This document shows, piece after piece, positions 8,559-56,259 of a stretch of 64,000 bases of DNA. Below the pieces are notes generated by a model. That model was not told the DNA's origin, made no database searches, and saw only the letters and a program-made list of their open reading frames with translations. The position numbers were made by a program, and so were the translations under genes. Origin of the DNA: Halobaculum sp. MBLA0143 (GTDB taxonomy: Archaea > Halobacteriota > Halobacteria > Halobacteriales > Haloferacaceae). The stretch covers positions 868,001-932,000 of the forward strand of contig NZ_JBGKAC010000001.1 in assembly GCF_041361465.1 (NCBI RefSeq), given 5' to 3'. Every line of letters begins with the position of its first letter. Position 1 is the stretch's first letter.

Positions 8559-8583
8559 GGCACTTGTTAACTTGTCCCTACCA

Positions 8584-8591
8584 GATTTAAA
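8584..8591 (-). promoter_or_regulatory. TATA box for the winged-helix regulator
   Basis: Read on the minus strand, CTTTAAAT lies about 30 bases before the ATG at 8558. A directly repeated ACTTGT (two copies in ACTTGTTAACTTGT, about 8562-8575) sits between the box and the start codon, where an autoregulatory operator would fall. Confidence 0.5.
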
Positions 8592-8825
8592 GGTTCTCCC
8601 TCGGGCCGACCGCCGAGATCGGACGGTGGTGCGAGAGTGACGACACCCGGACGCGGTCGGGTGACGTGTCTCGGCGGCTCCCGACGAGGCTGATTCGCAT
8701 CGGGCTTGTTCATCTCGGGATTTGAATGTTCGGGGAAGACGGACCCGTTGCCGCGACCCCTCGTCTCGGCGCCCGGCCGGCGGACCGAAATCGCTTTGCC
8801 CCGGCCTTCGGAAGTTGCGTGCGGT

Positions 8826-10160: not shown

Positions 10161-10176
10161 GCCTCGCGTCCGTTCC

Positions 10177-10248
10177 CGACTCGGACTCTCTCGTCTGTTC
10201 TCGGACTCCCCCGTCTGCTTTCGACTCGGACTCTCTCGTCTGTTCTCG
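10177..10248. repeat. 27-bp direct repeat downstream of purA
   Basis: CGACTCGGACTCTCTCGTCTGTTCTCG-type sequence occurs at 10177-10203 and again at 10222-10248 (period 45), with a degenerate partial copy between. It fills the convergent gap between purA and the membrane-protein gene, and reads as Ser/Asp-rich codons in some frames but belongs to no gene. Confidence 0.6.
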
Positions 10249-10250
10249 AC

Positions 10251-10700: not shown

Positions 10701-10827
10701 GAGAGAACGACAGGAGGCTCTCGAACAAGAGTCCCGTGGCACTGTCTCCGCTCGGACACAGCGTGTAGGAGATCCGTCACGAGCCGCTCGGCGCGGTTGC
10801 TCGGACGATACCCGAGAGACCGACGGG

Positions 10828-11751
10828 CTACCCCACCGTCAGTTCCAGCAACGCCTCCTGGGCGTACAGTCTGTTCTCCGCCTGCTGCCAGACGACCGAC
10901 TGACCGCTCTCCAACACCGCCTCCGTCACCTCCTCACCCCGGTGGGCCGGCAGACAGTGCATGAACACGGCGTCGTCCGCGGCCAGCCCGAGGAGGTCGC
11001 TGTCGACACCGAACCCCCCGTCGACGAACGCCGCGCGCTTGTCCCCGTCCGGGTCTTCGCCCATGCTCACCCACACGTCAGTGTAGACGGCGTCCGCGTC
11101 CGCGACGGCCGCCGCCGGGTCCGTCGTCGTCTCCGGTGGCCCCCCGAGCGCCACCGCTCGCTCCAACAACCCGTCGTCCAGGCCGTACCCCGCCGGCGTC
11201 GCCACGGTGAGGTCCACACCCAGCGCCGCACAGCCGACGACCAACGACCGACAGACGTTGTTCGTGTCGCCGACCCAGGTCAGGCTCGCGTCCAGTCCGA
11301 CCGTCTGCCGGAGCGTCAACAGGTCCGCCAGCGTCTGACACGGGTGGGCGGCGTCCGTCAGCCCGTTGACCACCGGGACGCTCGCGTACTCCGCGAGCGT
11401 CAGTAGGTCCTCGTGGTCGAACAGCCGGGCGACGATCCCGTCGACGTAGCCGGACAGCGCCCGGGCGGTGTCCCGCAGCGGCTCGCCGGCGCCCAGTTGG
11501 AGGTCGTCCGGCCCGAGGAACTGGGCGTGACCCCCCAGCCGCGTCAGCCCGGTCTCGAAGGAGACGCGCGTCCGGGTGGAGGGTTTCTCGAACAACAGGG
11601 CGACCGTCTGGCCGGCCAGCGGCGACCCGGAGGGGTCGTCCGCGCGGGCCGTAGCGTCGGCCAACAGCCCGCGCAGCGCCGCCGGCGAGCGGTCGTCGAC
11701 GGTCGTGAAGTCGTCTGCTTCCGTGGTGTCGTGTGGGGGTTGCATCTGCAT
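10828..11751 (-). CDS. argF: Ornithine carbamoyltransferase
   Basis: A 307-aa enzyme that transfers the carbamoyl group to ornithine to give citrulline. Diagnostic motifs are all present: the carbamoyl-phosphate loop EKPSTRTRVSF (residues ~55-65), the HPCQTLADL block, and the HCLPAHRGEE active-site segment near the C-terminus, which distinguishes ornithine from aspartate carbamoyltransferases. It is the last gene of the arginine block, 78 bases after argE, the only large gap in the lysW-to-argF run. A second ATG two codons in is an alternative start. No carbamoyl-phosphate synthase gene is in the window. Confidence 0.95.
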   Translation of the reverse strand: MQMQPPHDTTEADDFTTVDDRSPAALRGLLADATARADDPSGSPLAGQTVALLFEKPSTRTRVSFETGLTRLGGHAQFLGPDDLQLGAGEPLRDTARALSGYVDGIVARLFDHEDLLTLAEYASVPVVNGLTDAAHPCQTLADLLTLRQTVGLDASLTWVGDTNNVCRSLVVGCAALGVDLTVATPAGYGLDDGLLERAVALGGPPETTTDPAAAVADADAVYTDVWVSMGEDPDGDKRAAFVDGGFGVDSDLLGLAADDAVFMHCLPAHRGEEVTEAVLESGQSVVWQQAENRLYAQEALLELTVG

Positions 11752-11829
11752 GGTGTGTCGTGACAGCGTATGGTGTGGTGGCGGTGCGTCCGTGCCGGAA
11801 GAGGAGAAGGTGGGTGGGGTGGGAGGCCC

Positions 11830-13047
11830 CTATCGCAGTCGCTCGACGGCGTCGACGAGGACGGCCGTCGCGTGGTCGACCGCCGGCAACGGGACGCGTT
11901 CGTCGCTCGTGTGGTCCAGCGTGGAGTCGCCCGGGCCGTACGTCACCGTCGGGACGCCCCAGGCGTCGGCGTACAAGTTGGCGTCGGCGGTGCCGGTCTT
12001 CCGGAGCAGCCGCGTGTCGCCGCCGGCCGTCCTGATCGCCGCCCGGAACGCCCGCGCGAGCTCCGTCCGCGGGCTGGCGGTCGTCGGCGGAATCGCCGTC
12101 CCCCACGACAGCGTCCCGTGTGGGGTCGCGTCGACGACCCGCTCGCGGAGCGTGGCCGCGGTCGTGTCCGGCGGAATCCGGAACTGCGCCTCGACGGTCG
12201 CCCGGACGGCGCCGTCCTCGGTCGACCCGCCGTCGAACTGGGTCGGCGTCGCGGTGACGGCCGTCGACACCCCCTCGGCGTCGCCGGCGGGCTCGTCCGG
12301 CGGCCGAGCGGTGTCGTCGTCCCCGACGAGCGTGCCGCCGTCGTCGACGACCCGGTCGGCGATCCGGCGCCACCACGCCGTCGCGTACTGGACGGCGTTG
12401 GGCTCCGGTCGAGAAGCGTGGCCCGCGGCCGTCTCCACCGTGTACGTGACCGGGAGGAACCCACGGTAGCCCAGCGTGAGCGCGTCCCAGCCGGACGGCT
12501 CCCCGTTGACGACCGCAGCCGGCGCCGGGCGGTCACCGACGAGGTGGCGCGCGCCGCGCGAGCCGCGTTCCTCGCCCACGACCGCCGCGAACGACGCCCC
12601 GGTCTCGACGGCCGCGACCGCCATCGTCGCCAACGGCCCGGTGGCGTCCACGCTGCCGCGACCCCACAGTTCGGCCACCTCGTCGTCGCCGCCGACGTCC
12701 GGCACCGGACTGTGGCCCCAGCGCGCCTCGGCCGCCGAGACGGTCTCGACCCGCACTGGCACCTCGCCCGGCACGGTGTCGACGTGTGAGGTGAGCAACA
12801 CGTCGTCGCCTTCTTCGGTCCCCGGCGCCGGCGCACGGACGTTGCCGACGGCGTCCGTGTGGACCTCGCGGCCACACCCGCGGAGGAACGCCGCGAGCAG
12901 CCGCCCGGCGTCCGCCTCCTCGCCCGACGGCGACGGCGTCGCCACCAGGTCACACAGTAGCTGCCGGACGGGCGTGTCGAGCGCCGCCGACTCGGCGGGC
13001 GAGTCGACGGCGTCCGTCCCGGCGGCCGCGCGGCCGTCGACGGTCAC
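11830..13047 (-). CDS. argE: [LysW]-ornithine hydrolase (M20 deacylase)
   Basis: A 405-aa M20-family metallohydrolase. In this context it would cleave the isopeptide bond between the LysW carrier glutamate and ornithine, releasing free ornithine (LysK/ArgE function). Metal-site motifs are LLTSHVDTVPGE (His-x-Asp), the GRGSVDATGPLATM bridging Asp block, and AVVGEERGSRGARH (Glu-Glu, catalytic base). A C-terminal RKTGTADANLYA block and STLDHTSDERVPL supply the final ligands. A ~40-residue Asp/Glu/Gly-rich insert around residue 250 is typical halophilic padding. The GTG start overlaps the argD stop (GTGA), so coupling to argD is likely. Confidence 0.9.
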   Translation of the reverse strand: MTVDGRAAAGTDAVDSPAESAALDTPVRQLLCDLVATPSPSGEEADAGRLLAAFLRGCGREVHTDAVGNVRAPAPGTEEGDDVLLTSHVDTVPGEVPVRVETVSAAEARWGHSPVPDVGGDDEVAELWGRGSVDATGPLATMAVAAVETGASFAAVVGEERGSRGARHLVGDRPAPAAVVNGEPSGWDALTLGYRGFLPVTYTVETAAGHASRPEPNAVQYATAWWRRIADRVVDDGGTLVGDDDTARPPDEPAGDAEGVSTAVTATPTQFDGGSTEDGAVRATVEAQFRIPPDTTAATLRERVVDATPHGTLSWGTAIPPTTASPRTELARAFRAAIRTAGGDTRLLRKTGTADANLYADAWGVPTVTYGPGDSTLDHTSDERVPLPAVDHATAVLVDAVERLR

Positions 13048-14246
13048 GACAACACCTCCACGAGCGCGTCCACGAGCCGGTCGGCGTCCGACTCCGTCAC
13101 CGTCAGCGGCGGGAGCAGACGGAGCACCGTCCGACCAGCCGGCAGCGCCAGCACGTTCTCCGACAGCGCCAGCTCCCGGAGCACCCGGTTCGCGCCACGA
13201 CGGAGCTGGACACCGAGCATCAGCCCGGCGCCCCGCACCTCGCGGATCGGGAGGTCGTGTGTCTCCGTGGCCGCCTCGATCTCGGACCGGAGGTACGAGC
13301 CGACGGCGGCGGCGTGTTCCGGCAGCCGTTCGTCCACGATGGTGTCGAGGGTGGCGACCGCGGCGGCACACGGAATCGGGTTGCCGGAGAAGGTGGAGCC
13401 GTGGTTGCCGGCGCCGTCGGCGAGCCAGTCGGCACACAGTGTCGCCCCCAGCGGCAGCCCGGAGGCGACCCCCTTGGCCGTCGTGACGGCGTCCGGGACG
13501 ATCCCGGCGCGCTCGCAGGCCCACAGCTGTCCCGTCCGACCGAGCCCGGTCTGGATCTCGTCACAGACGAGTGCCGCGCCCGCCTCCGCGGTCGCCTCGC
13601 GGGCGGTCTGGAGGTAGTCGACGCTCGCGGGGTGGATACCGCCTTCACCCTGGATCGGCTCCAGGAACACCGCCGCAGTGTCCTCGGTGACGGCCTCCGC
13701 CAACGCCTCGCCGTCCCCGTACGGGACGAACCGGACGCCCCGGGGGATCGGGTCGAAGCCGGCGCGGTACTTCGGCTTCCAGGTGAGCGACAGCGCCCCC
13801 ATCGTCCGGCCGTGGAAGGCACGCTTCGCCGCGATCACCTCCGTCCGACCGGTGGCAGATCTGGCGAACTTCAAGGCCGCCTCGACCGCCTCGGTCCCGG
13901 AGTTACACAGCCAGACGTTGTCGAGACTGCCCGGCGCGATCGCGCCCAGCTTCTCGTAGGTCGCCGTCCGGGTCGCCGTCGGGTACGACGCCTGGACGTA
14001 CAACAGGTCGCCCGCCTGCTCGCGGACCGCGCTCACCACGTCCGGGTGGCAGTGGCCGACCGGGACACAGGCGTACGACGCCCCGAAGTCGAGGTACTCC
14101 CGACCGTCCGTGTCCACGAGGTGGACGCCGTCGCCGCCGGCCAGCTCCAACGGCTTCTCCGAGAAGACGAACCCCTCTCCTTCTCCTTCGCTCTCACCTT
14201 CGCCTCCGCCGGCGCCGTCCGCCGGCGACTGGTCGACGTCGCTCAC
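13044..14246 (-). CDS. argD: [LysW]-glutamate-semialdehyde/acetylornithine aminotransferase
   Basis: A 400-aa class III PLP aminotransferase that converts the carrier-bound glutamate semialdehyde to carrier-bound ornithine. Fold-defining motifs are NSGTEAVEAALKFARSAT, AFHGRTMGALS, the cofactor-binding CDEIQTGLGRTG, and TTAKGVASGLPLGA with the Schiff-base lysine. The N-terminal ~25 residues are a Glu/Gly/Ser repeat (GEGESEGEGEGF) that is not part of the family and looks like halophilic low-complexity padding. The start overlaps the argB stop, and its stop overlaps the argE start. Confidence 0.93.
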   Translation of the reverse strand: MSDVDQSPADGAGGGEGESEGEGEGFVFSEKPLELAGGDGVHLVDTDGREYLDFGASYACVPVGHCHPDVVSAVREQAGDLLYVQASYPTATRTATYEKLGAIAPGSLDNVWLCNSGTEAVEAALKFARSATGRTEVIAAKRAFHGRTMGALSLTWKPKYRAGFDPIPRGVRFVPYGDGEALAEAVTEDTAAVFLEPIQGEGGIHPASVDYLQTAREATAEAGAALVCDEIQTGLGRTGQLWACERAGIVPDAVTTAKGVASGLPLGATLCADWLADGAGNHGSTFSGNPIPCAAAVATLDTIVDERLPEHAAAVGSYLRSEIEAATETHDLPIREVRGAGLMLGVQLRRGANRVLRELALSENVLALPAGRTVLRLLPPLTVTESDADRLVDALVEVLS

Positions 14247-39082: not shown

Positions 39083-41188
39083 ATGGAACTGCAACGGGAG
39101 AGTGACGCGTTCCGGGTGATCGACGCTGCGAAGAACACTGTACGAATCGGCACGGACGGGTGGGACGGTGGCGCCGACGCCCCCACGGTCACGGACGCTA
39201 TCTCCGTCGGCGGGGACAACTCCGAGGTGGACCCAGACATCTCCGTCAGCGGGACGACAGGCGGACTCGAATTTCCCCAGACTGCAGTCAACGTTGTCCG
39301 GCTGGACACGGACGAACGATTCCGTGTCAGTACCCACCAGGATCGGGTTCTGTTCGAGCCAGGGAGCTACGTGCTCCGGATCGACTCTGAGCCACGAGTG
39401 TACGTCCGGTTCGACGGCTCGGGAGAGATCAACCGACACGCGCGTGGCCAGATCACCCTGTCGCTGTCGGACCCGACGCCGCTAACTATCCGTTTCAACA
39501 GCGATACAGGGCGACCAGGCGACCAGATCACGGTTGGATCCAGCGTCGAAGACGTGGCGAGAGCGCTCCCGTTGCTCGCTGCCGCGACCGACTGTACGAC
39601 CCCAGACCGGACCTGGCCGGCTGCCAGGAAAGACCCAGTAGGGATCAGGCTCGGCGAGGCGTTCGATCGGCCAGACGGGCTCGAACCGCTCGACACGGGC
39701 GTAGAGCTCGTCGTCCCTCCGGAACTGCGCTACCTCGTCGCGAGTGCGTCGCTGGTCTCCTATCTGGGCGCAGACGTGCGGCTGGAGCAGGACTGTACTC
39801 CGACACTCCGGGTAGGTGGTGAACCCCACCGGCTCGGTCCCCTCCCGGAGTTCCAGTACGAGGTTGCCTCGACGCTCCGACGAACGTTCTACCTCGACTG
39901 TCTCGCCCGCGAGGCCGGGCCACACGCAGAGCGCGTGTCTCTCTCTCACTACCTCCCGGAACTCGGGTTGGACGCGGACTGGCTGTACGAGGCACCGATT
40001 GCGGATCGAGTCCAGGCGTACCTGAACGCCCCGTTCGACTCTGTTACCGAGGAGTTCCCCGAGTGGAATCTCTCGATGTACGTCGAACCGAGTCTCGAGA
40101 ACGTTGAGTGTCTCCCTTACTTCCTAGAGGGGCTGCCGTTCTTCTTCCTCCCGGAGTCGGAGGAGTTGGACAAGGCGGAGTGGATCTCGCTGTCGATGGA
40201 CGACAGCTACCAACACGGCGACCAGACGGCCGACCCTCGTGAGCCGACGGACGAGACGTTCACACGTCTCCAGCGGGAGATCTCGAACGTCGACCTGGTG
40301 AAACCTGTGTTGGGGCCGAGCCGCTACCACGGCTGGCTGGGCGACGACGTGCCAATCGACGTGTTCAAAACGTTTCCGGAGGCGTACGAGAACCGCCAGA
40401 AGTACCTCGACGACAGTCCAATCTCGGTAGTCGCGGTCCTCAACAACGCCGACATGCGGGAGGAACACGACGCTGCAGTTGAGCGGTACGAACAACAGGC
40501 GGACGCACTCAACATCGACATCGAGGTGCGAGAGAACATCACGAGCGCCGAGCTCGCCCGAGTGTTCGAGTCCCGCAACGACCTGGTCCACTTCATCGGT
40601 CACAGCGACGAGGACGGGCTGGAGTGTGCCGACGGCTTCCTCTCCATCTCGTCGGTGTCTGAGTCGAACACACAGACGTTCTTCCTCAACGCCTGTGGCT
40701 CCTACCACGAGGGCGTCGGGCTCGTCCGGAAAGGGAGTGTCGCCGGCGGTGTCACCTTCGAGGCGGTGACGGACAGCCAGGCCGCAAAGGTTGGGACGAC
40801 GTTCGCCCGGCTGATGGTGTCGGGTTACTCGATGGAGCGAGCGCTCGATAAGGCACGACAACAGGTGATGACACCCAAGGACTACGCGGTGGTCGGGGAC
40901 GGGACACACGTCCTGACGCAGTCTGATGCAATCATTCCACCGGGCCACCGCCTCTCCGAGCACGACGACGAGTGTGTTCTCGAAGTCACACAGATGACTC
41001 CAAGAGAGAAAGGCGGTGAAGGACAAGAGAGATTCGAAGGGTTCGACCTGGACTTCCACCTGAACGCACAGCGACGCACGTACCGCTTCGCCAAAGAGGA
41101 TCTATCGGCGGCAACCGAAGTGATCGAGAACCCAGTACTGTTCGACGGACAGCTCTACTGGTCAGACGAACTACGAGAGCTACTCTGA
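39083..41188 (+). CDS. CHAT-domain (caspase-like) protein
   Basis: A 701-aa soluble protein. Residues ~1-150 are mainly short beta strands (FRVSTHQDRVLFEPGSYVLR). Residues ~160-440 form a mixed region unlike any family I know. The C-terminal ~250 residues match the CHAT fold: the ISVVAVLNNADMREEHDAAV strand-helix, then NDLVHFIGHSDEDGL with His507, then NTQTFFLNACGSYHEGVGLV with Cys538, and a closing MSVEATDSQ-like strand with YSMERALDKARQ. The His and Cys, each at the end of a hydrophobic strand and 31 residues apart, are the dyad of CHAT/clan-CD proteases. No signal peptide is visible, so it is cytosolic. The convergent neighbour is a small single-span membrane protein. Activity and substrate are unknown. 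Confidence 0.72.
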   Translation: MELQRESDAFRVIDAAKNTVRIGTDGWDGGADAPTVTDAISVGGDNSEVDPDISVSGTTGGLEFPQTAVNVVRLDTDERFRVSTHQDRVLFEPGSYVLRIDSEPRVYVRFDGSGEINRHARGQITLSLSDPTPLTIRFNSDTGRPGDQITVGSSVEDVARALPLLAAATDCTTPDRTWPAARKDPVGIRLGEAFDRPDGLEPLDTGVELVVPPELRYLVASASLVSYLGADVRLEQDCTPTLRVGGEPHRLGPLPEFQYEVASTLRRTFYLDCLAREAGPHAERVSLSHYLPELGLDADWLYEAPIADRVQAYLNAPFDSVTEEFPEWNLSMYVEPSLENVECLPYFLEGLPFFFLPESEELDKAEWISLSMDDSYQHGDQTADPREPTDETFTRLQREISNVDLVKPVLGPSRYHGWLGDDVPIDVFKTFPEAYENRQKYLDDSPISVVAVLNNADMREEHDAAVERYEQQADALNIDIEVRENITSAELARVFESRNDLVHFIGHSDEDGLECADGFLSISSVSESNTQTFFLNACGSYHEGVGLVRKGSVAGGVTFEAVTDSQAAKVGTTFARLMVSGYSMERALDKARQQVMTPKDYAVVGDGTHVLTQSDAIIPPGHRLSEHDDECVLEVTQMTPREKGGEGQERFEGFDLDFHLNAQRRTYRFAKEDLSAATEVIENPVLFDGQLYWSDELRELL

Positions 41189-42881: not shown

Positions 42882-45152
42882 GTGACAGAGATCGCTGCGG
42901 CCGTCGCCGCCCTGCGCCGCGAGGCACGGGCAACCGACGGTCGTCGGCTCCTCGCCGTCGTCGGCGAGAGCCACGAGACCTGTCGGGCGGTCGCCGACAC
43001 CGCGACGGATCTGGCCGTGGTGTCTGGCGACGACTCTCACGACATCCTCGCAGAGTCCGTCGAGACGTACGAGCGACAGCCGGCTCCACACGCCGGCCGG
43101 CTGATGGGGACGACACACGAGACGGTCGTCTACGACGGGGTCGACGAGTTCTCGCCGGACGCCGTCGGCCGAACCGTCGGTGCCGTCGCCGGCGGCGGCC
43201 TGTACGTCCTCCTGCTGCCGACCGACTGGACCGACCGGACGGACGACTTCCGGGCGTCGCTGGCGGTCCCGCCGTTCGACGCCGCGGACCCGACGAACGC
43301 CTTCCGCGAACGGGTCCTGGAGACGTTCGACCACCCGGGTGTCGCGGTCTACGACGCCGACGAGGGCCGTCTCCGCCGTGACGGACTCACCGGTCGGGAA
43401 CGGCCCCCACCCCGAAGCGACGGGACGCTCCCGGCGGACCCAGGGTTCCCGCTCGCGGCCTACGAGGCGTGTCGCACGGCCGACCAGGGGCGGAGTCTGC
43501 GTGCGTTAGAGCGGCTCCGCGAGCCCGAGACGGCAGTCGTCGTGGAGGCGGACCGCGGCCGCGGGAAGTCCACCGTCGCCGGGCTCGCCGCCGGCGCCCT
43601 CGCGGCCGCCGGCAGCGAGGTCGTCGTCACGGCACCCACGCGTTCCAACGCCGCCACCCTGTTACAGCGGGCGACCGAACTGACTGGGACGCTCGGCGCA
43701 CGGTCGGGTACGGAGCCACTCGTCACGGCCGCCGGCGGCCGCGTGGCGTACGTCCCGCCGACGGAGGTGGCCGACCGAGCCGACGACGCCGACGCCGTCT
43801 TCGTCGACGAGGCGGCCGGGCTCCCGGTGGCGACGCTGTCCGCGACGCTGGCGGCCGACCGCGCGGCGTTCGTCACGACCGTCCACGGCTACGAGGGCGC
43901 CGGGCGTGGCTTCTCCGTCCGGTTCCGCGACCGACTCGCGGACGCCCGCCACACGGTCACGGAGACGCGGCCGACGGAGCCGATCCGACACGCTCCGGGC
44001 GACCCACTGGAGTCGTGGTCGTTCCGAGCCCTCGCGCTCGACGCTCGGCCGGCCGTCGACCAACTCCTCGCGGACGCGAGTCTCGCGGACGCGACGTACC
44101 GCAGACTGTCGACCGACCGACTCCGCACGGACGACCACCTCCTCCGGGAGGTGTTCGGACTGCTCGTCGTCGCCCACTACCGGACGGAGCCGACGGATCT
44201 CGCCCGACTCCTGGACGCGCCGAACCTCTCCGTCCACGCCCTGCTCGTCTCCGGCCACGTCGCCGCCGTCGCGCTCGTCGCCCGCGAGGGTGGGCTCTCG
44301 GAGCGTCGCCGCCGCGAGCTGTTCGACGGCGGTCGGATCCACGGCAACATGGTTCCGGATCTCCTGGGGGGACAGCTGCGGGACCCCGACGCCGCACGGC
44401 CGGTCGGCTACCGGGTCGTCCGGGTCGCCACACACGGCGTCCTCCGGCGGTCTGGCTTCGGCTCGCGGCTGTTGTCGGCCGTCGAGACCGACCTCGCAGA
44501 CGGCGCCGACCGCCCGGGGTTCGCGCCCGCCGACTACTTCTCGTCCGGCTTCGGCGCCTCGCCGGGCGTCGTCGACTTCTGGCGTCAGAACGGCTACCGG
44601 ACCGTCCACCTCTCGACGACCCGCAACGACACGAGCGGGGAACACTCCGCCGTCGTCGTCCGCCCGGTGACGGACGCCGGCCGAGCGTTCGCGGCCCGCC
44701 ACGGCCAGGGGTTCCGCGACCGGGTCGCCGGCGTGCTCTCGGACGGACTCTCGGACCTCTCGCCGGATGTCGTCCGCGCGACCCTCCGCGCGTGTGGCGC
44801 CGACCCCGAACCACTACTAGAGTTGACCGACTACGAGTGGCGGGTCGTCGTCGGCGCCGGCACCGGCCCGACCGGCTACGGCGTCGCGCCGGACCCGTTC
44901 CGCCGGCTCGCCGTCGCGTGGTTCCTCGACACGGACGCGCCGGGCGACACTCCCGCCGACGACATCGACGCCCGCCGCGAGCGACTGCTCGTCCGGAAGG
45001 TGCTCCAGGGCCACGCCTGGGACGATGTCACGGAGGAACTCGGCTTCGTCTCCACGGGAGAGTGTATGCGGACGCTCGGGGAGACCGTCACGGCGCTCGT
45101 CGACCGCTTCGGCGGCGACCGCGCCGCCCGCGAGCGGGCCCGCTACGACTGA
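42882..45152 (+). CDS. tmcA: tRNA(Met) cytidine acetyltransferase
   Basis: A 756-aa enzyme that makes N4-acetylcytidine in RNA using acetyl-CoA and ATP. Domains in order: an N-terminal alpha/beta domain (~1-190), a RecA-like helicase domain with Walker A EADRGRGKSTVAGL (~residues 221-234) and Walker B AVFVDEAAGLPVATL, a GNAT acetyltransferase domain (VRVATHGVLRRSGFGSRLL as acetyl-CoA pyrophosphate loop, ~515-535), and a C-terminal tRNA-binding tail. RIHGNMVPDLLG and DYFSSGFGASPGVVDFWRQN are family blocks. The GTG start is supported by alignment of the TEIAAAVAALRREARA opening. The length is normal for archaeal TmcA. Confidence 0.92.
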   Translation: MTEIAAAVAALRREARATDGRRLLAVVGESHETCRAVADTATDLAVVSGDDSHDILAESVETYERQPAPHAGRLMGTTHETVVYDGVDEFSPDAVGRTVGAVAGGGLYVLLLPTDWTDRTDDFRASLAVPPFDAADPTNAFRERVLETFDHPGVAVYDADEGRLRRDGLTGRERPPPRSDGTLPADPGFPLAAYEACRTADQGRSLRALERLREPETAVVVEADRGRGKSTVAGLAAGALAAAGSEVVVTAPTRSNAATLLQRATELTGTLGARSGTEPLVTAAGGRVAYVPPTEVADRADDADAVFVDEAAGLPVATLSATLAADRAAFVTTVHGYEGAGRGFSVRFRDRLADARHTVTETRPTEPIRHAPGDPLESWSFRALALDARPAVDQLLADASLADATYRRLSTDRLRTDDHLLREVFGLLVVAHYRTEPTDLARLLDAPNLSVHALLVSGHVAAVALVAREGGLSERRRRELFDGGRIHGNMVPDLLGGQLRDPDAARPVGYRVVRVATHGVLRRSGFGSRLLSAVETDLADGADRPGFAPADYFSSGFGASPGVVDFWRQNGYRTVHLSTTRNDTSGEHSAVVVRPVTDAGRAFAARHGQGFRDRVAGVLSDGLSDLSPDVVRATLRACGADPEPLLELTDYEWRVVVGAGTGPTGYGVAPDPFRRLAVAWFLDTDAPGDTPADDIDARRERLLVRKVLQGHAWDDVTEELGFVSTGECMRTLGETVTALVDRFGGDRAARERARYD

Positions 45153-45199
45153 CCGACGGTTCCGTGGGCTTAACGGCGCCCGTCGTGTACCGTCCCGAC

Positions 45200-45331
45200 A
45201 TGGGAATTCCGCCGGTCGACGCACTCGTCCGGGTGTTCGGACCGTTCGCACTGCCCGGACTGATCTTCGTGCTCGGACTCGTCGGCTACCTCGTGATCGT
45301 CGGGCTGAACAGGCTCGGGTTGGAGTTCTAA
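45200..45331 (+). CDS. 43-aa membrane microprotein
   Basis: MGIPPVDALVRVFGPFALPG leads into one long hydrophobic helix (LIFVLGLVGYLVIVGLNRLG). It has its own ATG 47 bases after tmcA. The stop TAA overlaps the stop of the convergent Tat-protein gene by four bases. Length and plan are similar to other haloarchaeal one-helix peptides. Function is unknown. Confidence 0.5.
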   Translation: MGIPPVDALVRVFGPFALPGLIFVLGLVGYLVIVGLNRLGLEF

Positions 45332-46017
45332 TCCGGGCGACGGCTCGGGAGGACCGTCAGGTCGCCGAAGTCTCGGACGCGAACCGACAACTCGGCGTCC
45401 ACCTCGACCGTACCGCCGACCGTCTTCAGTGCTCGCTGGCCCGGCGGAATATCGGGGTTGTCGACCGTCTCGTCGAGGGTGCGGCTCGTCTCGACGCTCA
45501 CAGTCCCCACGTCGGCGCCGAACGACGCGCCCTCGCCACGGGCCGCCGTCGCGCGGCCGTTCGGGTGGTCGACGGTGGTCCCCTCGGGACCCACCTCCAC
45601 GCCGAACTCCGGCGGTGAGAAGGGACGGGCCAGCGCGACCGTCTCGGTAGTCCGCCCGCGCGGTGCGGTCCGCGTGACGAGCGAGGTCGTCTCCTCGCCC
45701 CCGAAGGCCCGCTCGGACGCCTGTGCGACACCGGGACTCCCGTCGGGACCGTTCACGCCCGGACTGTCCCCCGTCGGCAGCGACTCCTGTCCGACCGGGC
45801 GCACGGTCCCCCGGTCTTCGTCGACGGTGTACGGCGGCAGCTCGTCCCAGTGGTACTTCTGGTACCGACTCGACTCCGGGAGGTCGTACGTCCGGTACAC
45901 CTCGACGACCCGGACGGAGTCTCCGGAGGCCGCCGCCGCGGGGCCGACGAGCGCGGTGACGCCCGTCGCGCCGATTGTAGTCAGTACGTCTCGTCGTGCT
46001 GGCGTGTCTCGTGTCAT
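45328..46017 (-). CDS. Tat-exported protein of unknown function
   Basis: A 229-aa protein with a twin-arginine signal: TPARRDVLTTIGATGVTALV then an AAAASG-type cleavage region at about residue 30. The mature part is Gly/Pro/Thr-rich with WDELPPYTVDEDRGTVRPVG and a beta-rich C-terminal half (FGVEVGPEGTTVDHPNGRA, TVEVDAELSVRVRDFGDLTV). No lipobox or cysteine is seen, so it is likely secreted freely. Its ATG overlaps the stop of the frameshifted Cys-rich gene upstream (TGATG), so the two were one translational unit. Confidence 0.7.
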   Translation of the reverse strand: MTRDTPARRDVLTTIGATGVTALVGPAAAASGDSVRVVEVYRTYDLPESSRYQKYHWDELPPYTVDEDRGTVRPVGQESLPTGDSPGVNGPDGSPGVAQASERAFGGEETTSLVTRTAPRGRTTETVALARPFSPPEFGVEVGPEGTTVDHPNGRATAARGEGASFGADVGTVSVETSRTLDETVDNPDIPPGQRALKTVGGTVEVDAELSVRVRDFGDLTVLPSRRPD

Positions 46018-46815
46018 CAGTTGTTGTTGTCGTCTTTAGAACAGTCGTCTGGCTTGCTCTGCTGACCGTTGCACTGGTTGTTCGCAACCTGTCTCACCGC
46101 CTCGATGGTGCAGTCGGTCAGCCGTTGGTCGTACCCCTCGAACTGCGTCCCGTCGCCGTCGCACGTCCCCTCGTTGTACTGATCACTCTCGTTGGCGTGG
46201 TACGTGAGCATCGGCGTCACCTCCCGATCCCGCACCTCACCGAGTCGATGCTCGTCGTAGTTGCTCCCCCCTCCGCCAACGAGCGCACTCTCTTCGATCT
46301 GCGAGAACCGGATGAAGCCGTGGAGCACCTCTTGAATTGCGGAGTTGCGCTGGAGTCCGTCGAAGCCACCACAGGCGGCTCCTGTGAAGGCCATGACGCC
46401 GCGCTTGAACGCGGAGGGGTTATTACAGGTGTCTGCGAGTTCACCACCGGCTGTGTTAGCAGCCCTCACTGTGGACCAGCATATGAATTCCGTTCATATC
46501 CTTGAGGTTCTGCCCCGTCCCGTTCTCGGAGCCAGTCTCCAGGTACGACCGGAACTTGCTCCTTAGGTCGTCCGTACCGCTGAAGCTGATGTCTGGGTAC
46601 GAGATAGCCGACGACTGCGCGCGCTGTACATCGTAGTAGGACACGGCGTCGGCGGAGAGGAGCGTGGAGAATGCTCCGTCAATCGCCGACGGGATGTCGT
46701 CGCCCTTCCTCACGTAGTAGGTGTCCTCGTAGGACGTGTTGGGGTACAGACGGATGTACGCTCGCTTCTTCGTACACTCATCACCGCCGTTGTACAGTGG
46801 CTTGTATATGTTCAC
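46017..46815 (-). pseudogene. Cys-rich protein gene with a one-base frameshift
   Basis: Two half genes on the same strand fit together. The 5' half (from a GTG at 46815) reads KPLYNGGDECTKKRAYIRLY to NGIHMLVHSEGC, then hits TAA at ~46456. The 3' half, one base out of frame, continues NTAGGELADTCNNPSAFKRG, VLHGFIRFSQIEES, RDREVTPMLTYHANESDQ and a Cys/Asn-rich tail, ending at the Tat gene start. The 799-nt span equals 266 codons plus one base, so one inserted base near 46455 explains it. No signal peptide precedes the 5' half, and an in-frame TAA lies just upstream. Several His residues suggest a metal site, but no family was recognised. Confidence 0.6.
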
Positions 46816-46903
46816 AATAGGCGGAATAAGGTGGAGACATTATTCGTTTCGAAATTAATCCACTACCACAAGACACATGAACTAGACCAATAATGAGTGG
46901 ACT

Positions 46904-47695
46904 GTGGTAGAAGATAGCTCTCGTCGAAAGGTCCTCCAAATCCTTTCCGGGTCCGGACTAACGGTTTTGACGGGGTGTAACACGCTCGGGGGCGAGACGG
47001 AGAGCCCGTCGAGACGATCGCCGACACAGCGGCCCAGTCGGACGACCACCGCCACAGAAACTACTTCGCCAACAGACAGCCCTACCCCGACAGACACGTC
47101 AACTCCCGCAGACACCGCTTCGCCGACTGACTCCCCAATTCAGACGGATTCCCCCTCCCCAACGGACTCACCGACCCCGACAGACTCCCCCACACCGACT
47201 GCGACCCCAACGCCCACCGGCACACCGACGCCACGCGCGTGCGCTGGTATCGACCTCACGAAGGAGAACGGACTCTGGATTCGAATCGCGTTCGACCACG
47301 GTGTCACGCGCCCGGACGGCCGGGAGGTGTCGATCCGGATCGACTCGATCACGATGAGCGGTGCGACTGACGACTACGGGAAGACGTACGACGTAGGCAG
47401 CGACACAGACAAAATCGAGTTCGTCGACGGTGCGTACGACCCCGAGCGCTCCGGGGGGCGGACGTATCGGTGGTTCGAGCCGACGTTCACACTCCAGTTT
47501 CCGACACACCTGTACTGGGACTTCCACAGTGGGATCACAGCCGAAGCCGACACCTCCGCGTACGACGACGACGTGCTTCTCACCCGTTGTTCGAAGATGT
47601 TCGACCGACAGCGACTCTCACCGCGGTCGTGGCACGAAGTAGACTTTCCGTTCTATCGCTACGGGTCCCCGGAGCCGAGGACGCCGGACAACTGA
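46904..47695 (+). CDS. Tat lipoprotein with Pro/Thr/Ser stalk, paralogue 1
   Basis: A 263-aa protein and the first of three tandem paralogues. A twin-arginine signal ([20 protein letters not shown]) ends in a lipobox LTGC, so Cys at ~residue 25 would be lipidated and anchor the protein outside the membrane. Residues ~40-108 are a low-complexity stalk of [10 protein letters not shown]-type repeats, a likely O-glycosylated spacer. The C-terminal ~155 residues form a globular domain ([57 protein letters not shown]), with two conserved cysteines (RACAG and LTRCS) able to form a disulfide. The fold and role are unknown. A GTG start, which aligns exactly with the ATG of the other two copies, was chosen. 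Confidence 0.75.
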   Translation: MVEDSSRRKVLQILSGSGLTVLTGCNTLGGETESPSRRSPTQRPSRTTTATETTSPTDSPTPTDTSTPADTASPTDSPIQTDSPSPTDSPTPTDSPTPTATPTPTGTPTPRACAGIDLTKENGLWIRIAFDHGVTRPDGREVSIRIDSITMSGATDDYGKTYDVGSDTDKIEFVDGAYDPERSGGRTYRWFEPTFTLQFPTHLYWDFHSGITAEADTSAYDDDVLLTRCSKMFDRQRLSPRSWHEVDFPFYRYGSPEPRTPDN

Positions 47696-47732
47696 CGGTG
47701 ACTCCGGTACGAGCGTCCCCGATCACGGGTCC

Positions 47733-47760
47733 TCGACTTCACTAATGAAGTATTTATGAA
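47733..47760 (+). promoter_or_regulatory. Duplicated promoter before paralogue 2
   Basis: TCGACTTCACTAATGAAG followed by TATTTATGAA. The TATA centre is ~38 bases before the ATG at 47792, exactly as in the copy before paralogue 3. This spacing favours the internal ATG reading [10 protein letters not shown] over the upstream ATG at 47756, which would lie inside the promoter. Confidence 0.65.
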
Positions 47761-47791
47761 TTCACAAGAAGACAATGAGATCCACCACAGC

Positions 47792-48583
47792 ATGCCGGGA
47801 GACAGCTCACGCCGGAAGGTCCTCCAACTCCTCTCCGCCTCCAGCATCACGGTCCTCACTGGGTGTAACGCACTCGGTGGTGAGACGGAAAGTCCGTCGA
47901 GACGACCGCCGACACAGCGGCCCAGTCGGACAGCCACACCTACAGACACACCTTCACCGACGGACAGCCCCACCCCGACAGACACACGCTCTCCCACAGA
48001 CACTGCTTCGCCGACGGACTCTCCGACCCCGACAGACAGTCCCACCCCAACGGACTCTCCGACCCCGACAGACTCCCCCACACCGACAGACAGCCCGACA
48101 CCGACCGGCACACCGACGCCTCGCGTGTGCGCTGGAATCGACCTCACGAAGGAGAACGGACTCTGGATTCGAATCGCGTTCGACCGCGGTGTCACGCTCC
48201 CGGACGGCCGGGAGGTGTCGATCCGGATCGACTCGATCACGATGAGCGGTGCGACTGACAACTACGGGAAGACGTACGACGTAGGCAGCGACACGGACAA
48301 GATCGAGTTCGTCGACGGGGCGTACGAACCCGAGCGCTCCGGGGGGCGGACGTACCGGTGGTTCGAGCCGACGTTCACGCTCCAGTTCCCGACGCACACC
48401 TACTGGGACTTCCACAGTGGGATCACAGCCGAAGCCGACACCTCCGCGTACGACGACGACGTGGTCCTCACCCGTTGCTCGGATGACTTCGACCGACAAC
48501 GAGTTTCGCCGAAGTCGTGGCACGAAGTCTACTTCGGGTTCATTCGCTTCGGTCCTGCAAAACCGAGGACGCCGAACAACTGA
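47792..48583 (+). CDS. Tat lipoprotein with Pro/Thr/Ser stalk, paralogue 2
   Basis: A 263-aa paralogue of the preceding gene: a [20 protein letters not shown] twin-arginine signal, lipobox LTGC, the longest stalk of the three (about nine PTDS/TPTDS units, ~residues 40-110), then the same two-cysteine globular domain ([19 protein letters not shown] to YFGFIRFG). It differs from copy 1 in scattered positions (for example HTYWDF for [18 protein letters not shown] near the end). The start was set at the ATG at 47792 from alignment with the other copies and promoter spacing. Confidence 0.78.
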
Positions 48584-48622
48584 CGTGGTGACGCCGATAC
48601 GAGCGTGTCTGATAGTGGTTCG

Positions 48623-48650
48623 TCGACTTCACTAATGAAATATTTATAAG
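48623..48650 (+). promoter_or_regulatory. Duplicated promoter before paralogue 3
   Basis: TCGACTTCACTAATGAAA followed by TATTTATAAG, differing from the copy at 47733 by a few bases. The TATA centre is ~38 bases before the ATG at 48682. Confidence 0.65.
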
Positions 48651-48681
48651 TACACGACCGAGGATGCAATTCGCCGCAGAC

Positions 48682-49455
48682 ATGCCGGGAGACAGTTCAC
48701 GCCGGAAGGTCCTCCAACTCCTCTCTGCCTCGGGCGTCGCGGCCCTCACTGGGTGTAACGCGCTCGGCGGCGAGACGGAGAGCCCGTCGAGACGCCCGCC
48801 GACACAGCGGCCCAGTCGGACAGCCACCGCCACAGAGACACCGTCTCCCACAGACAGCCCCACCTCGACAGACACGCCGACTCCGACAGACACCGCCTCG
48901 CCGACGGACTCTGCAACTCCGACAGACAGGCCGACACCGACAGACAGCCCGACACCGACAGATAGCCCGACACCGACCGGCACACCGACACCCCGTGTGT
49001 GCGCAGGCATCGGTCTCACGAGTGAGAACGGACTCTGGATTCGAATCGCGTTCGATCGCGGTGTCACACTCCCGGACGGCCGGGAGGTGTCGATCCGGAT
49101 CGACTCGATCAGGATGCGCGGTGGGACTGGCAACCCCGGGAAGACGTACGACGTAGGCAGCGACACAGACAAGATCGAGTTCGTCGACGGCGCGTACGAC
49201 CCCGAGCGGTCCGGTGGGCGAACGTACCGGTGGTTCGAACCGACGTTCACACTCCAGTTCCCGACGCACCTGCACTGGAACTTCCACGCCGGAATCACGG
49301 TTGAGGCCGACACCTCCGCGTACGACGACGACGTGCTTCTCACCCGTTGCTCGAAGGAGTTCGATCGGCAGCGTGTTTCGCCGGACTCGTGGAACGAAGT
49401 CTACTTCGGATTCCGTCGGTTCGGTCCCCCCGAGCCCCAGACACCAGACGGCTGA
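48682..49455 (+). CDS. Tat lipoprotein with Pro/Thr/Ser stalk, paralogue 3
   Basis: A 257-aa paralogue: a [20 protein letters not shown] twin-arginine signal, lipobox LTGC, a slightly shorter stalk ([20 protein letters not shown] onward), and the same globular domain with cysteines in RVCAG and LTRCS. It is the most diverged in the domain (GIGLTSENGLW, RMRGGTGNPGKTYDVG, HLHWNFHAGITVEADT). An upstream in-frame ATG at 48664 exists but is only ~20 bases from the TATA box, so 48682 is preferred. Confidence 0.78.
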   Translation: MPGDSSRRKVLQLLSASGVAALTGCNALGGETESPSRRPPTQRPSRTATATETPSPTDSPTSTDTPTPTDTASPTDSATPTDRPTPTDSPTPTDSPTPTGTPTPRVCAGIGLTSENGLWIRIAFDRGVTLPDGREVSIRIDSIRMRGGTGNPGKTYDVGSDTDKIEFVDGAYDPERSGGRTYRWFEPTFTLQFPTHLHWNFHAGITVEADTSAYDDDVLLTRCSKEFDRQRVSPDSWNEVYFGFRRFGPPEPQTPDG

Positions 49456-49536
49456 CACTGCGACACCCTGCGACGACACCACCCGCCGACCGCTGTCACC
49501 GACACGACTACGACCCACCCCGACCTACCGCCGTCG

Positions 49537-49673
49537 ATGCGTCTCCGTTCGTTCGACGTCGGTCTCCTCCACCTCCTGACGTTCCTCTCGGCGGTCGTGC
49601 TGGGGCTCCTCCTGCTGTACCTCGTCGTCGAACTCGCCGCCGACCTAGAGACGGTGTTGTCGGAGCTGTTCGG

Positions 49674-49677
<4 letters not shown>
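49537..49677 (+). CDS. 46-aa membrane microprotein
   Basis: A short basic start (RLRSFDVG) followed by one strong hydrophobic helix (LLHLLTFLSAVVLGLLLLYL) and an acidic tail (VELAADLETVLSELFG). The TAG overlaps the copA stop by four bases in convergent orientation. It lies 81 bases after the third lipoprotein. Function is unknown. Confidence 0.55.
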
Positions 49678-52292
<2,615 letters not shown>

Positions 52293-52332
52293 CACCCACC
52301 TGTATCTACGGGTTCCTCACTCATTGCGTTTT

Positions 52333-52342: not shown

Positions 52343-52577
52343 GACACTGGTGGAAGACACTGACGAGTTCAGTTACCAAAGTACCGAGGGAGGTACGCCA
52401 CCGTCGGCGAAAAACAGACACGACCGGGTTCCGGGTCGTCGTGGGGGGACCGGCGAGGAGCCAGGCTCCTCGTGGGACTGTGCGGTGGTTTCAAATCCAA
52501 AGCCGACACAACGAGCAGACAGTGTGGGCGAGGAGCCGGAGCGACAGACAGGGTCGCCCAGCGACCCCGGCCGACAG

Positions 52578-54698
52578 ATGACCGCCGGTGACAGTCTCGA
52601 CGGCGCGACGCTGTCGGAGAAACTGCAGTTACTCCGTGGAGAGGTGGACCCGACGGGTCGAGCGACCGGCTACCTGCCGGGTGTCGAACGGCTCGGCGTC
52701 GAGCCGCTGCGGTTCGTCGACGGGCCGTTGGGGGTCGTCGACGGGGAGTCGACTGCGTTCCCGGCGACAGTCGCGTTGGGCGCGAGCTGGGACCCGGAGC
52801 TGGCGCGGCGGTTCGGTCGTGCGCTCGGTCGCGAGACGCGCGCGAACGGCCACGACGTCGTGCTCGCGCCCGGTGCGAATCTGGTTCGTGTCCCGACGTG
52901 TGGCCGGAACTTCGAGTACCCCGGAGAGGACCCGCACCACGCCGCCCGGCTCACGGCTGCGACCGTCGCCGGCGTCGAGGCGACCGGTGCCGGGGCGACG
53001 CTGAAACACTTCGTCGTCAACAACCAGGAACGGAACCGCGACAAACTGAACGTCGTCGTCGGCGAGCGAGCGCTCCGGGAGCTGTACCTCCCGGCGTTCC
53101 GTGCCGGAGTCGACGCCGGGGCGTCTGTCGTGATGACGGCGTACAACCGTGTGGGTGGCCACTACGCGAGCGAACACCGGCGACTGCTGGAGAGGGTCCT
53201 CCGCCGGCGTTGGGGGTTCGACGGCGTGACAGTCTCGGACTGGTGGGGCACACACGACACGGTGGCGGCCGCGACGGCGGGACTCGACGTCGAGATGCCG
53301 GGCGTCTCGCCGGTCGCTCGACGCGCGCCCGACAGTCGGCTGGCGCGGCTCGTCGAGACGGTCGGCCTGTCGGAGCGACTGGGACTGTCGGTCCCGCTCT
53401 ACTGGCGTGTCGTCGACCGGTTGCTCGCGGAAGACGGCCAGCCGGAACCGTACCCACCGGCAGTGTTCGACGACCGGCTCCGGCGAGCAGTCGACCGCGG
53501 AGCCGTCCCGGAGACCCGGGTCGACAAGGCTGCCCGCCGGGTCGCACGTCTCGCAGCCGACGGGAGAGACTCCCGACGGCCGTCCGTCGACCGCGACGCG
53601 CACCGACGGCTCGCCGAGACGGTCGCGGTTCGTGGGACCGTTCTCCTCCAGAACCGTGGTCTGCTCCCGCTCGACGGGGAACAGTTGGCCGTCCTCGGCC
53701 CGGCGGCAGACGAGGCGAAGGTGAGCGGAGGGGGGAGTGCCGCCGTCACCCCGTCGACGACGGTCGACCCGGTCACTGCGCTCCGTCGAACCGCGCGAGT
53801 GACGTTCGAACGGGGTGTGCCGCGCGCGACGGTGGGGCGGTCGGCGCCCGTCTGGCGGCGTGTCGGGTGGGACCGACACCCAGAGACGGACATCGGTGCG
53901 GCGACGCGAACGGCGGCGGCGGCAGACGCCGCGGTCGTGGTCGTCGAAGACGACGCCGGCGAGAGCGCAGACCGGTCGTCGCTCCGACTCCCCGGTCTGC
54001 AGGACCGACTCGTCCGTGCGGTCGCAGCAGCGAACCCACAGACGGTCGTGGTCTGTCGGACGAGCGGTCCCGTCGCGATGCCGTGGCGAGACGACGTAGC
54101 TGCAATCGTCCAGACCTGGTACCCGGGGCAGGCAGACGGCGACGCGCTCGCGGCCGTGTTGAACGGACGCGACCCCGGTGGACGGCTCCCGGTCACGTTC
54201 GGTGAACGATTCGACAGCTATCCGGTGAGGACCGACAGGCAGTACCCCGGGGTCGACGGTAACGTCCACTACGACGAGGGTGTGTTCGTCGGCTACCGCG
54301 GGTTCGACCGGGACGGCCTCGACCCGACGTTTCCGTTCGGACACGGACTGTCGTACGCCGACTTCGAGTACGACGAAGCGGTCGTCACCACGGGTGAGGA
54401 GGGGCTGTCGGTGGATATCACGGTACGGAACGTCGCGGACCGGCCGGGACGAGAGGTGGTCCAAGCGTACGTCGTTCCGCCGGCGACGGAGGTTCCTCGT
54501 CCGGAGCGCGAACTCGGGTGGTTCCGACCGGTCCGCCTCGACGGCGGGGCGTCCCGCCGTCTCACCGGGAGTATCCCCCGTCGCAGACTCGCACGGTTCG
54601 ACACCGACGACGGGTGGGTCGTCGACAGCGGTCAGTACGAGGTACTGATCGGTCGGTCCAGCCGTGACGCCCGCCTCTCCGACACTGTCCGGCTGTGA
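52578..54698 (+). CDS. Glycoside hydrolase family 3 (beta-glucosidase-like)
   Basis: A 706-aa enzyme for hydrolysis of beta-linked sugars. The TIM-barrel domain (~1-300) shows LRFVDGPLGVV, GRNFEYPGEDPHHAARL, TLKHFVVNNQE (catalytic-site Lys/His) and FDGVTVSDWWGTHDTVAA, whose Asp221 is the expected nucleophile. The C-terminal alpha/beta-sandwich (~330-560) and a fibronectin III-like domain (FPFGHGLSYADFEY, then YVVPPATEVPRPEREL) complete the three-domain plan of bacterial/archaeal beta-glucosidases. No signal peptide is seen from the ATG at 52578, so it is probably cytosolic. It is followed by a membrane glycosyltransferase 187 bases later. Confidence 0.9.
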   Translation: MTAGDSLDGATLSEKLQLLRGEVDPTGRATGYLPGVERLGVEPLRFVDGPLGVVDGESTAFPATVALGASWDPELARRFGRALGRETRANGHDVVLAPGANLVRVPTCGRNFEYPGEDPHHAARLTAATVAGVEATGAGATLKHFVVNNQERNRDKLNVVVGERALRELYLPAFRAGVDAGASVVMTAYNRVGGHYASEHRRLLERVLRRRWGFDGVTVSDWWGTHDTVAAATAGLDVEMPGVSPVARRAPDSRLARLVETVGLSERLGLSVPLYWRVVDRLLAEDGQPEPYPPAVFDDRLRRAVDRGAVPETRVDKAARRVARLAADGRDSRRPSVDRDAHRRLAETVAVRGTVLLQNRGLLPLDGEQLAVLGPAADEAKVSGGGSAAVTPSTTVDPVTALRRTARVTFERGVPRATVGRSAPVWRRVGWDRHPETDIGAATRTAAAADAAVVVVEDDAGESADRSSLRLPGLQDRLVRAVAAANPQTVVVCRTSGPVAMPWRDDVAAIVQTWYPGQADGDALAAVLNGRDPGGRLPVTFGERFDSYPVRTDRQYPGVDGNVHYDEGVFVGYRGFDRDGLDPTFPFGHGLSYADFEYDEAVVTTGEEGLSVDITVRNVADRPGREVVQAYVVPPATEVPRPERELGWFRPVRLDGGASRRLTGSIPRRRLARFDTDDGWVVDSGQYEVLIGRSSRDARLSDTVRL

Positions 54699-54885
54699 GC
54701 AGGCGTGAGTCGCCCCCGGCAGTGAGGGGGCAGAGGGAACCACACCGACCGGAGCTCTGCGCGCGAATCTGTATGAGTAGAATCGGCCGTCCCCGTCGAC
54801 TCTGCGTACCGCGATTCCCCCGACAACACTAGATTGTGACTTCGGGATGGAGAGGGGAAGTGGTGAGGGACCAGTGGGTAGTTCA

Positions 54886-56259
54886 ATGGCAGACAGTAAC
54901 TCCGTGTCGGCCCTCCGCAGACTGTGGTCGCGGGCGACGGCGAGGCTCCCTCGTCTGGGTGGTTTCGGTGAACGTGTAGAGGTCGCCCTGTTCGGGCTCG
55001 TGATCGGTGCCGTCGTCGTGACGGGCTACGTACAGGGACAGCTCGTGTTCGTGCTTCCGATTCCCTCCGTGTTCGGCGGCGACGCCGTCACCGTGTTGCA
55101 GGCGACGGTCGCGTGTCTCACGCTCACTGGACTGTTCGGGCTCTCGATGCTCGTGTTGCTCGGCCAGTTGGGTCGCGACGACCAGACAGAGCTCCCCACG
55201 ACCGGACCGAGTGTCACGGCCGTGGTCCCCGTCCACGGTGACGAGAGTGTGCTCCACCGGAGTGTGGTGTCGTTGCTCCAGAGTCGGTACCGGGATCTGT
55301 CGGTCGTGATCGTCGCGGAACCGGACGACGAGGCGTCGATCCGGCGGGGGAGAGCCCTCGCACGCCACGACCAGGTCGAACTGCTCGTCAACGGCAACCC
55401 CGGGACGAAGGCCGGCGCGATCGACTACGCCGCGGCGGAGACGACGAGTGAACTGCTCGCCGTGTTCGACGCAGACGAGCGAGTCGATCCGCGGTTCGTC
55501 TCCAGTGCGGTCGCGCGTATCGACGACGACCGAGCAGACGTCGTCCAAGGGCGGACGATTCCGGAGCCGGAGGGGCTCACCGGACTCGCCGCTTACTACG
55601 AGTCGGTCGTGCTCGGTGACCTGAGCCAACGACTCCTGACGGCTCTGACGGGGTTCACCGTCGCAGCCAGTCGGACAGTCGTGATGCGCCGGTCGGCGTT
55701 CGACGCCGTCGACGGGTACGACCCGAAGATGCTCACCGAAGACTACGCGTTCGCGTTCGACTGTTACTGCAGTGAGGTCGACGTCGCCGAACAGTTCTCG
55801 TTCGCCTCGACGATCGAGGCGGCACACAACCCGGTCGACTGGTGGGGCCAACGGAAACGGTGGATGACCGGCTACGCACAGGTGTTACACAGGCTCGTCG
55901 GTCGCGGTCTCCGTCGGCTCTGGTCGGGAGAGGGGACACACCGGGACGTGCTCGCGCCGGCCATCTGTGCGTCGTCCGTGTTCGGCAACGTGTTCATGCT
56001 GTCACTCCTCCCGAAGGCGGCGGTCCTCGTCGCCCACGGACAGGGCCGGTGGCTCGCGTTGCCCGGGTTCACGCTGATCGGTGCCGCGCTCGCGCTCCGT
56101 GTGTACGACACGACGAGGGGCCGTCTCGGGTCGATCGGGGTCGGCTACCTGTTGCTCCCGGCAGTGTTACCGTTGTACAGCCTCGCCGGGATCAAGGCCG
56201 TCGTAGAGTACCTGTTCACCTGGAACGGGGAGTGGTACAGCGTCTCGAAGGGGAGCTGA
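54886..56259 (+). CDS. Membrane-embedded family 2 glycosyltransferase
   Basis: A 457-aa processive-type GT2 (cellulose/hyaluronan synthase-like). There are two N-terminal helices (VALFGLVIGAVVVTGYV; TLTGLFGLSMLVLLG), then the GT-A domain: VVPVHGDESVLHRSVVSLL, ELLAVFDADERVDPRF (DxD metal site), MLTEDYAFAFD (TED catalytic base) and DWWGQRKRWMTGY (QxxRW, acceptor site). Three or four helices close the protein. The Q-x-x-R-W motif predicts polymer extrusion or a membrane-linked sugar product. The ATG at 54886 was preferred; an in-frame ATG at 54847 adds 13 non-conserved residues. Polymer identity is unknown. Confidence 0.88.
   Translation: MADSNSVSALRRLWSRATARLPRLGGFGERVEVALFGLVIGAVVVTGYVQGQLVFVLPIPSVFGGDAVTVLQATVACLTLTGLFGLSMLVLLGQLGRDDQTELPTTGPSVTAVVPVHGDESVLHRSVVSLLQSRYRDLSVVIVAEPDDEASIRRGRALARHDQVELLVNGNPGTKAGAIDYAAAETTSELLAVFDADERVDPRFVSSAVARIDDDRADVVQGRTIPEPEGLTGLAAYYESVVLGDLSQRLLTALTGFTVAASRTVVMRRSAFDAVDGYDPKMLTEDYAFAFDCYCSEVDVAEQFSFASTIEAAHNPVDWWGQRKRWMTGYAQVLHRLVGRGLRRLWSGEGTHRDVLAPAICASSVFGNVFMLSLLPKAAVLVAHGQGRWLALPGFTLIGAALALRVYDTTRGRLGSIGVGYLLLPAVLPLYSLAGIKAVVEYLFTWNGEWYSVSKGS

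Follow-up and report, generated by a model that had tools for sequence, protein, structure and literature searches.

Tandem stalked Tat lipoproteins with a GH99-associated, probably glycan-binding module beside a recurrent haloarchaeal gene pair

Introduction

The window, a 64,000-nucleotide stretch of the genome of Halobaculum sp. MBLA0143, contains three consecutive genes for similar predicted lipoproteins, and the locus raises the question of what these proteins hold at the cell surface and how they came to be there. A sequence-only reading of the same DNA had described three tandem paralogous Tat lipoproteins on stalks and had proposed a surface family under diversifying pressure. The reading preferred here, to which we assign a probability of about one half, is that the three proteins are surface-anchored glycan-binding Tat lipoproteins and form part of an acquired segment together with two neighbouring genes, A and B.

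Anatomy of the gene triplet

The genes C1, C2 and C3 follow each other on the plus strand at 46904–47695 (263 aa, GTG start), 47792–48583 (263 aa) and 48682–49455 (257 aa). In C1, the signal occupies 46904–46975, the lipobox cysteine 46976–46978, the stalk 46979–47230 (84 aa) and the distal domain 47231–47692. The corresponding cysteine, stalk and domain positions are 47864–47866, 47867–48118 (84 aa) and 48119–48580 in C2, and 48754–48756, 48757–48990 (78 aa) and 48991–49452 in C3. The starts listed among the open reading frames for C2 (47756) and C3 (48664) were replaced by the later ATGs at 47792 and 48682, because the three copies align at the position of the peptide MPGDSSRRK; in C2, the earlier listed ATG is overlapped by a TATTTAT element. 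The resulting start-to-start distances of 888 and 890 bp agree with the repeat unit of about 890 bp described before.

The same reading had included a promoter in the repeated unit, which does not hold for the first copy. The plus-strand spacers before C2 (47696–47791) and C3 (48584–48681) are homologous, with 71 of 95 aligned bases identical and a local score of 68, where shuffled sequences reached at most 25. The DNA before C1 scores 15 and 13 against these two spacers, below the shuffled 95% levels of 18 and 19. The TATTTAT at 47751–47757 and TATTTATA at 48641–48648, both on the plus strand, may represent TATA boxes.

All three products possess a twin arginine and an LTGC lipobox, with 16 residues from the second arginine to the lipobox cysteine in the stretch SRRKVLQ...LTGC. 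This spacing lies inside the 12–21 residues given for haloarchaeal Tat lipoproteins in PMC2945643, so that the twin arginine, the lipobox and their distance all correspond to the TatLipo class described there. The tandem triplet, the hexapeptide-rich stalk and the particular distal module set the window proteins apart from that class. The stalks consist of proline, threonine, serine and aspartate to 76–81%, and the length variation attributed to them amounts to one hexapeptide. Each distal domain comprises 154 aa with two cysteines.

No further copy of a C gene was found elsewhere in the 3.58 Mb genome. The triplet is unlikely to be an assembly artefact, an outcome which the sequence-only reading had allowed for, since the copies have diverged and the assembly consists of 2 contigs. 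An RNA or tRNA element was also considered and rejected, as Rfam gave no RNA element in 44000–52000 and ARAGORN no tRNA in the whole window.

Selection on the copies

Over the domain, the copies have diverged to 84–90% DNA identity, as had been supposed, and the pattern of divergence is not a diversifying one. The dN/dS values of the three pairs of copies, which come from three paralogues of one genome only, are 0.32, 0.24 and 0.25, and with the domain divided into thirds, dN stays below dS in each of the nine comparisons. Synonymous divergence is uneven along the sequence, dS being 0.055–0.206 in codons 1–51 and 0.42–0.87 in codons 103–154; between copies 1 and 2 it rises from 0.055 in the first third to 0.417 in the last. 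The identical runs common to the copies are longer than under shuffled differences (P 0.01–0.04). Taken together, the low dN/dS, the uneven dS and the long shared runs suggest purifying selection with some gene conversion rather than diversifying selection.

A family of adhesins or virus receptors shaped by diversifying selection is an improbable identity for C1–C3. The surface stalk architecture, the tandem arrangement and a dN of up to 0.17 in the last third of the domain agree with such a family, whereas the overall dN/dS, the deficit of dN in every third and the nearly equal stalk lengths speak against it. Phage records contained no relative, which also speaks against such a family, and neither did viral contigs searched with two related queries; the suggested phage-interaction role is thus unsupported, and a phage origin was rejected on the same searches. 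The C proteins may nevertheless serve as receptors despite the missing phage relatives.

The distal module and its relatives

As the sequence-only reading had noted, the domain is not a recognised one: no curated family of Pfam or NCBIfam covers its 154 aa, and the searches gave no credible Pfam, NCBIfam or PDB sequence match, all PDB rows having E > 0.1. Among 99 relatives, a one-sequence search matched 2 genomes, including the source genome itself. Extended to 392 Halobacteriales genomes, it matched 23 at E ≤ 0.01, with GH99-type proteins among the matches at E values between 3e-5 and 1e-2. Eight of the loci retrieved (L010, L017, L021, L022, L025, L026, L027 and L028) were discarded as chance weak matches, because the motif is missing or the proteins are plainly others.

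A profile of the module built from 18 rows (A4) found it in at least 33 of the 392 genomes at E ≤ 1e-4 and recovered rows outside the profile, with E values from 1e-17 to 1e-37, further GH99-type proteins among them. The significant profile match spans the whole domain in this GH99-associated module family, as we define it here, with a conserved core YDVG...F..G.Y.PE..GG.TyRWF. In a sample of the phylum, at least 7 of 314 genomes gave profile matches, all of the same order; these family counts are lower bounds, only a part of the candidates per genome having been scored.

The phylogenetic tree was based on 37 distinct rows, of which 9 are stand-alone lipoproteins (3 from the window), 2 are right-handed beta-helix proteins and 26 are others. 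One of these 26 is a fragment and was left out of the GH99/WbsX scan; GH99/WbsX was found at E < 0.01 in 22 of the 25 scanned, with 20 matches exceeding the Pfam cut-off, and 3 lacked it. The module is thus related to a domain of haloarchaeal exported GH99/WbsX-like proteins (PF16317/PF14307), where it is homologous by profile and has no name of its own. These proteins are likewise exported, several of them with a twin arginine and a lipobox, and one haloarchaeal GH99 protein is given as Tat/SPII-exported in a table of PMC13260240. In the GH99/WbsX-like proteins, the module follows the enzyme-like part, whereas in the window proteins it stands alone on a stalk. As to membership of a known enzyme family, which the sequence-only reading had named as a point against itself, the relatives are indeed mostly C-terminal accessory modules of GH99/WbsX-like proteins, while the domain itself is no enzyme.

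The window copies group with L008 and L009 (support 97/97), and one common origin for the nine stand-alone lipoproteins together is rejected, though weakly (p-AU 0.04). Module and stalk occur together in the stand-alone lipoproteins L008, L009/L062 and L024; L018/L042 is a tandem pair of stand-alone lipoproteins with the module, and L061 combines the module with another middle part. L008 is encoded on a Haloprofundus halobius plasmid, where its annotation is hypothetical protein; L011 is annotated as a GH99-like protein of Halobaculum rubrum.

Two arrangements of the module in other genomes are worth noting. A different family of the order has a tandem lipoprotein pair with the module (L064, 8045–9967, genome G337). 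At L065 (G168:C6:20000-38000), five module matches fall within 10 kb (4041–13742), accompanied by Tat proteins of the GH99-like and other types; the adjoining genes look by eye like sulfatase and glycosyltransferase genes, and this is perhaps a surface polysaccharide locus.

Predicted structure and glycan binding

An AlphaFold (AF2) model computed from four domain sequences is all-beta, with a mean pLDDT of 67.9 and a pTM of 0.66, and according to this model the domain would be a beta-sandwich of unspecified kind. Foldseek gave no match to it at E ≤ 0.001. The best VIA-align Z score was 5.5, in the middling range, for the N-terminal part of DsbD and Ig-like chains, which are generic sandwiches. 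No carbohydrate-binding module (CBM) appeared among the Foldseek and VIA-align matches of this model of modest confidence, although the domain may still have a CBM fold, and the window domain has no Pfam CBM match; CBM60 matches 1 of 18 module members at E 0.012, below the cut-off. Assignment to a named domain family was rejected, the Pfam, NCBIfam and CBM scans having given no accepted match.

The C module is probably a surface-displayed, glycan-binding one, and glycan binding is the most likely function because the module shares its family with the accessory module found at the C-terminus of GH99/WbsX-like proteins. Bacteria possess surface glycan-binding lipoproteins of the SusE/SusF type, which are lipid-anchored, non-enzymatic and carry sandwich modules held off the membrane. 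The C proteins would function alike; the comparison concerns function and claims no relation in sequence. A search of the PMC literature on lipoproteins with carbohydrate modules gave no description of this family.

Genes A and B

Upstream of C1 and on the opposite strand lie two further genes. Gene B (46017–46815, minus strand) has a broken frame, with two open reading frames at 46456–46815 and 46017–46469; it encodes a zincin-like protein (QEVLH...EHRLG...TPM) that carries no signal. Gene A (45328–46017, minus strand) encodes a protein with a Tat signal but no lipobox. Both have counterparts in L062, a locus from another family and the only relative from the genome-contig scan. There, as in the window, the lipoprotein gene is divergent from the B homologue and the A homologue stands behind B. 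Both pieces of window B match the intact B of L062 (49–53% identity, E 9e-63), and the A proteins are 34% identical. The source genome has a second A–B–lipoprotein cassette on its other contig (L095, G000:C2:81000-97000, 6207–8578), with an intact B and a different lipoprotein domain. No A–B pair was found in the 19 kb around L008, the nearest relative of the module.

A one-sequence search with B matched at least 10 of 392 genomes, one of them falsely; L101, a short-chain dehydrogenase by sequence, was rejected as a false match and is not counted. A profile search found B in at least 28 of 392 genomes, at 35 distinct loci. Flanks were analysed for 27 of the 35, leaving out those of G321:C7, G140, G331, G126, G266, G117, G220 and G125; L100 and L102 are the loci of two of these eight.

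A separate A gene stands beside B in 23 of the 27 loci (weakly in L152), and A has a Tat-like start, by our own rule, in 18 of the 23. B itself has a Tat-like start in 2 of the 27, and these two belong to the 4 loci that have no separate A (L146, 5409–6461, and L148, 5831–6760, where B homologues have their own Tat signal). This complementarity suggests that B may be exported on the signal of A, since B has its own Tat start only where a separate A is lacking. The idea leaves two loci unexplained, L138 and L149, where a separate A is missing and B has no Tat-like start either.

The alignment of 21 B members shows H179, H205, G208 and C235 (L062 numbering) to be invariant and H118, E176, P218 and C253 nearly so. 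The motifs follow in the order [HQ]ExxH, [DE]HxxG and [ST]P[ML], which resembles the HExxH..H..Met pattern of metzincin-type zinc peptidases. Unlike those, most B proteins have glutamine for the first histidine: of the 27 loci, 16 have Q at this position and 8 have H, and the remaining 3 have another residue there or no recognisable motif. Window B, with QEVLH, is one of those lacking the HExxH zinc helix. B has no credible Pfam or PDB match, and no family or structure search supports the metzincin likeness; the structure model of L062 B has a pLDDT of 31. The activity of B is doubtful, as the first histidine is replaced by glutamine in the majority of loci, the window included.

Among the seven closest cassettes, B is frame-broken or stops early in at least 3, namely in the window, L096 (7251–8070) and L097 (6399–7148). 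The breaks lie at different places, and decay, assembly error and recoding are all possible.

Lipoprotein genes beside the A–B pair

Lipoprotein neighbours were defined as lipobox genes within 400 bp of the A–B span, a rule that was loosened once at the -3 position, admitting L095. Of the 27 loci, 12 have such a gene next to A–B, compared with 38 of 835 control spans (4.6%) from the same loci (binomial P 7e-10); when the six loci known before the test are set aside, 6 of 21 have one (P 2.7e-4). The P values are a guide only, given this change of rule and the common ancestry of the loci. By the same rule, 15 of the 27 loci have no adjacent lipoprotein. In the loci examined, the neighbour lipoprotein bears the window-type domain in the window and L062 only; it has another domain in L095–L098 and a short domain in L099, L136 and L139. 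The scanned neighbour lipoproteins of other loci matched no Pfam family. As the neighbours at other A–B loci bear a different domain, the relation to sugar modules may not be central to the cassette.

The same observations bear on a possible, though on balance unlikely, role of C, in which it would serve an exported A–B complex, proteolytic or toxic (halocin-like), as its receptor or anchor at the surface or as its immunity protein. The ancestry of the module would then be of no consequence, and the stalk could carry any sandwich domain. This role is in line with the enrichment of lipoprotein genes beside A–B, the at least two other distal domain types, the zincin-like motif of B and the Tat signal that B itself carries at two of the four loci lacking a separate A. 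It is opposed by the lack of any toxin, protease or immunity family match for A, B or C, by the glutamine that makes the activity of B doubtful, and by the state of the window genes, where B is frame-broken while C1–C3 are intact with dN/dS well below 1.

Origin of the segment and its flanks

In one congener (G001), the conserved stretch behind TmcA is followed up to the P-ATPase gene by 306 bp in place of window positions 45307–49678, i.e. the segment with A, B and C1–C3. In the other two congeners, the flanks sit on different contigs, and none of the three congeners holds the domain. The surroundings of the site are only partly conserved in gene order, as TmcA is located at the far contig end in G001. 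The G+C content is 55–69% through most of 46000–49700 and about 72% around it. It is probable, judging by these comparisons, that the segment was acquired; alternatively, G001 may have lost it.

The next gene (49674–52295) is by its sequence presumably one for a copper-type P-ATPase. Its adjacency, seen in the window only, is what would favour lipoproteins that bind or sense a solute, either a small molecule or a metal. Against this, G001 has the P-ATPase gene without the lipoproteins, and the domain matches no solute-binding family, so that C1–C3 are very unlikely to be of this kind.

Beyond the P-ATPase gene, genes of the GH3 beta-glucosidase and family 2 glycosyltransferase types are located at 52350–56256. 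On the other side, 39083–41185 encodes a protein of 701 aa, whose match to a CHAT domain (E 0.0015) falls short of the Pfam cut-off.

Proposed role of the segment

As surface-anchored glycan-binding proteins, the C products would leave the cell folded by the Tat route, as their signals indicate, and lipid would anchor them at the lipobox cysteine. The Thr/Pro/Ser/Asp-rich stalk of about 80 residues would lift the beta-sandwich module off the membrane and through the envelope. There, the module would bind a glycan, whether from the surface layer of the cell itself, from exopolysaccharide or from a nutrient polysaccharide, or would otherwise hold something at the surface. A would be the Tat-exported partner of B, and the zincin-like B, having no signal, would leave the cell together with A; C would act beside them as a surface anchor or docking protein.

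A wider scheme can be proposed tentatively, and we give it rather little credence: A, B and C would constitute one surface module in which B rides on the Tat signal of A, the pair is held or received by the stalked lipoprotein C, and the distal module of C is swapped between lineages and tripled in the window. No description of such an A–B–C module with B hitch-hiking on A was found in the PMC literature, nor was a relevant paper on hitch-hiking (co-exported) Tat substrates in haloarchaea.

For the haloarchaea, the link to GH99-type proteins gives a testable role, glycan binding, to an unnamed but recurrent surface module. Two families that lack curated names, A and B, come to light, which travel together and often stand beside lipoprotein genes. 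If it is true that B leaves the cell through A, archaea would have in B a Tat substrate that is co-exported by hitch-hiking.
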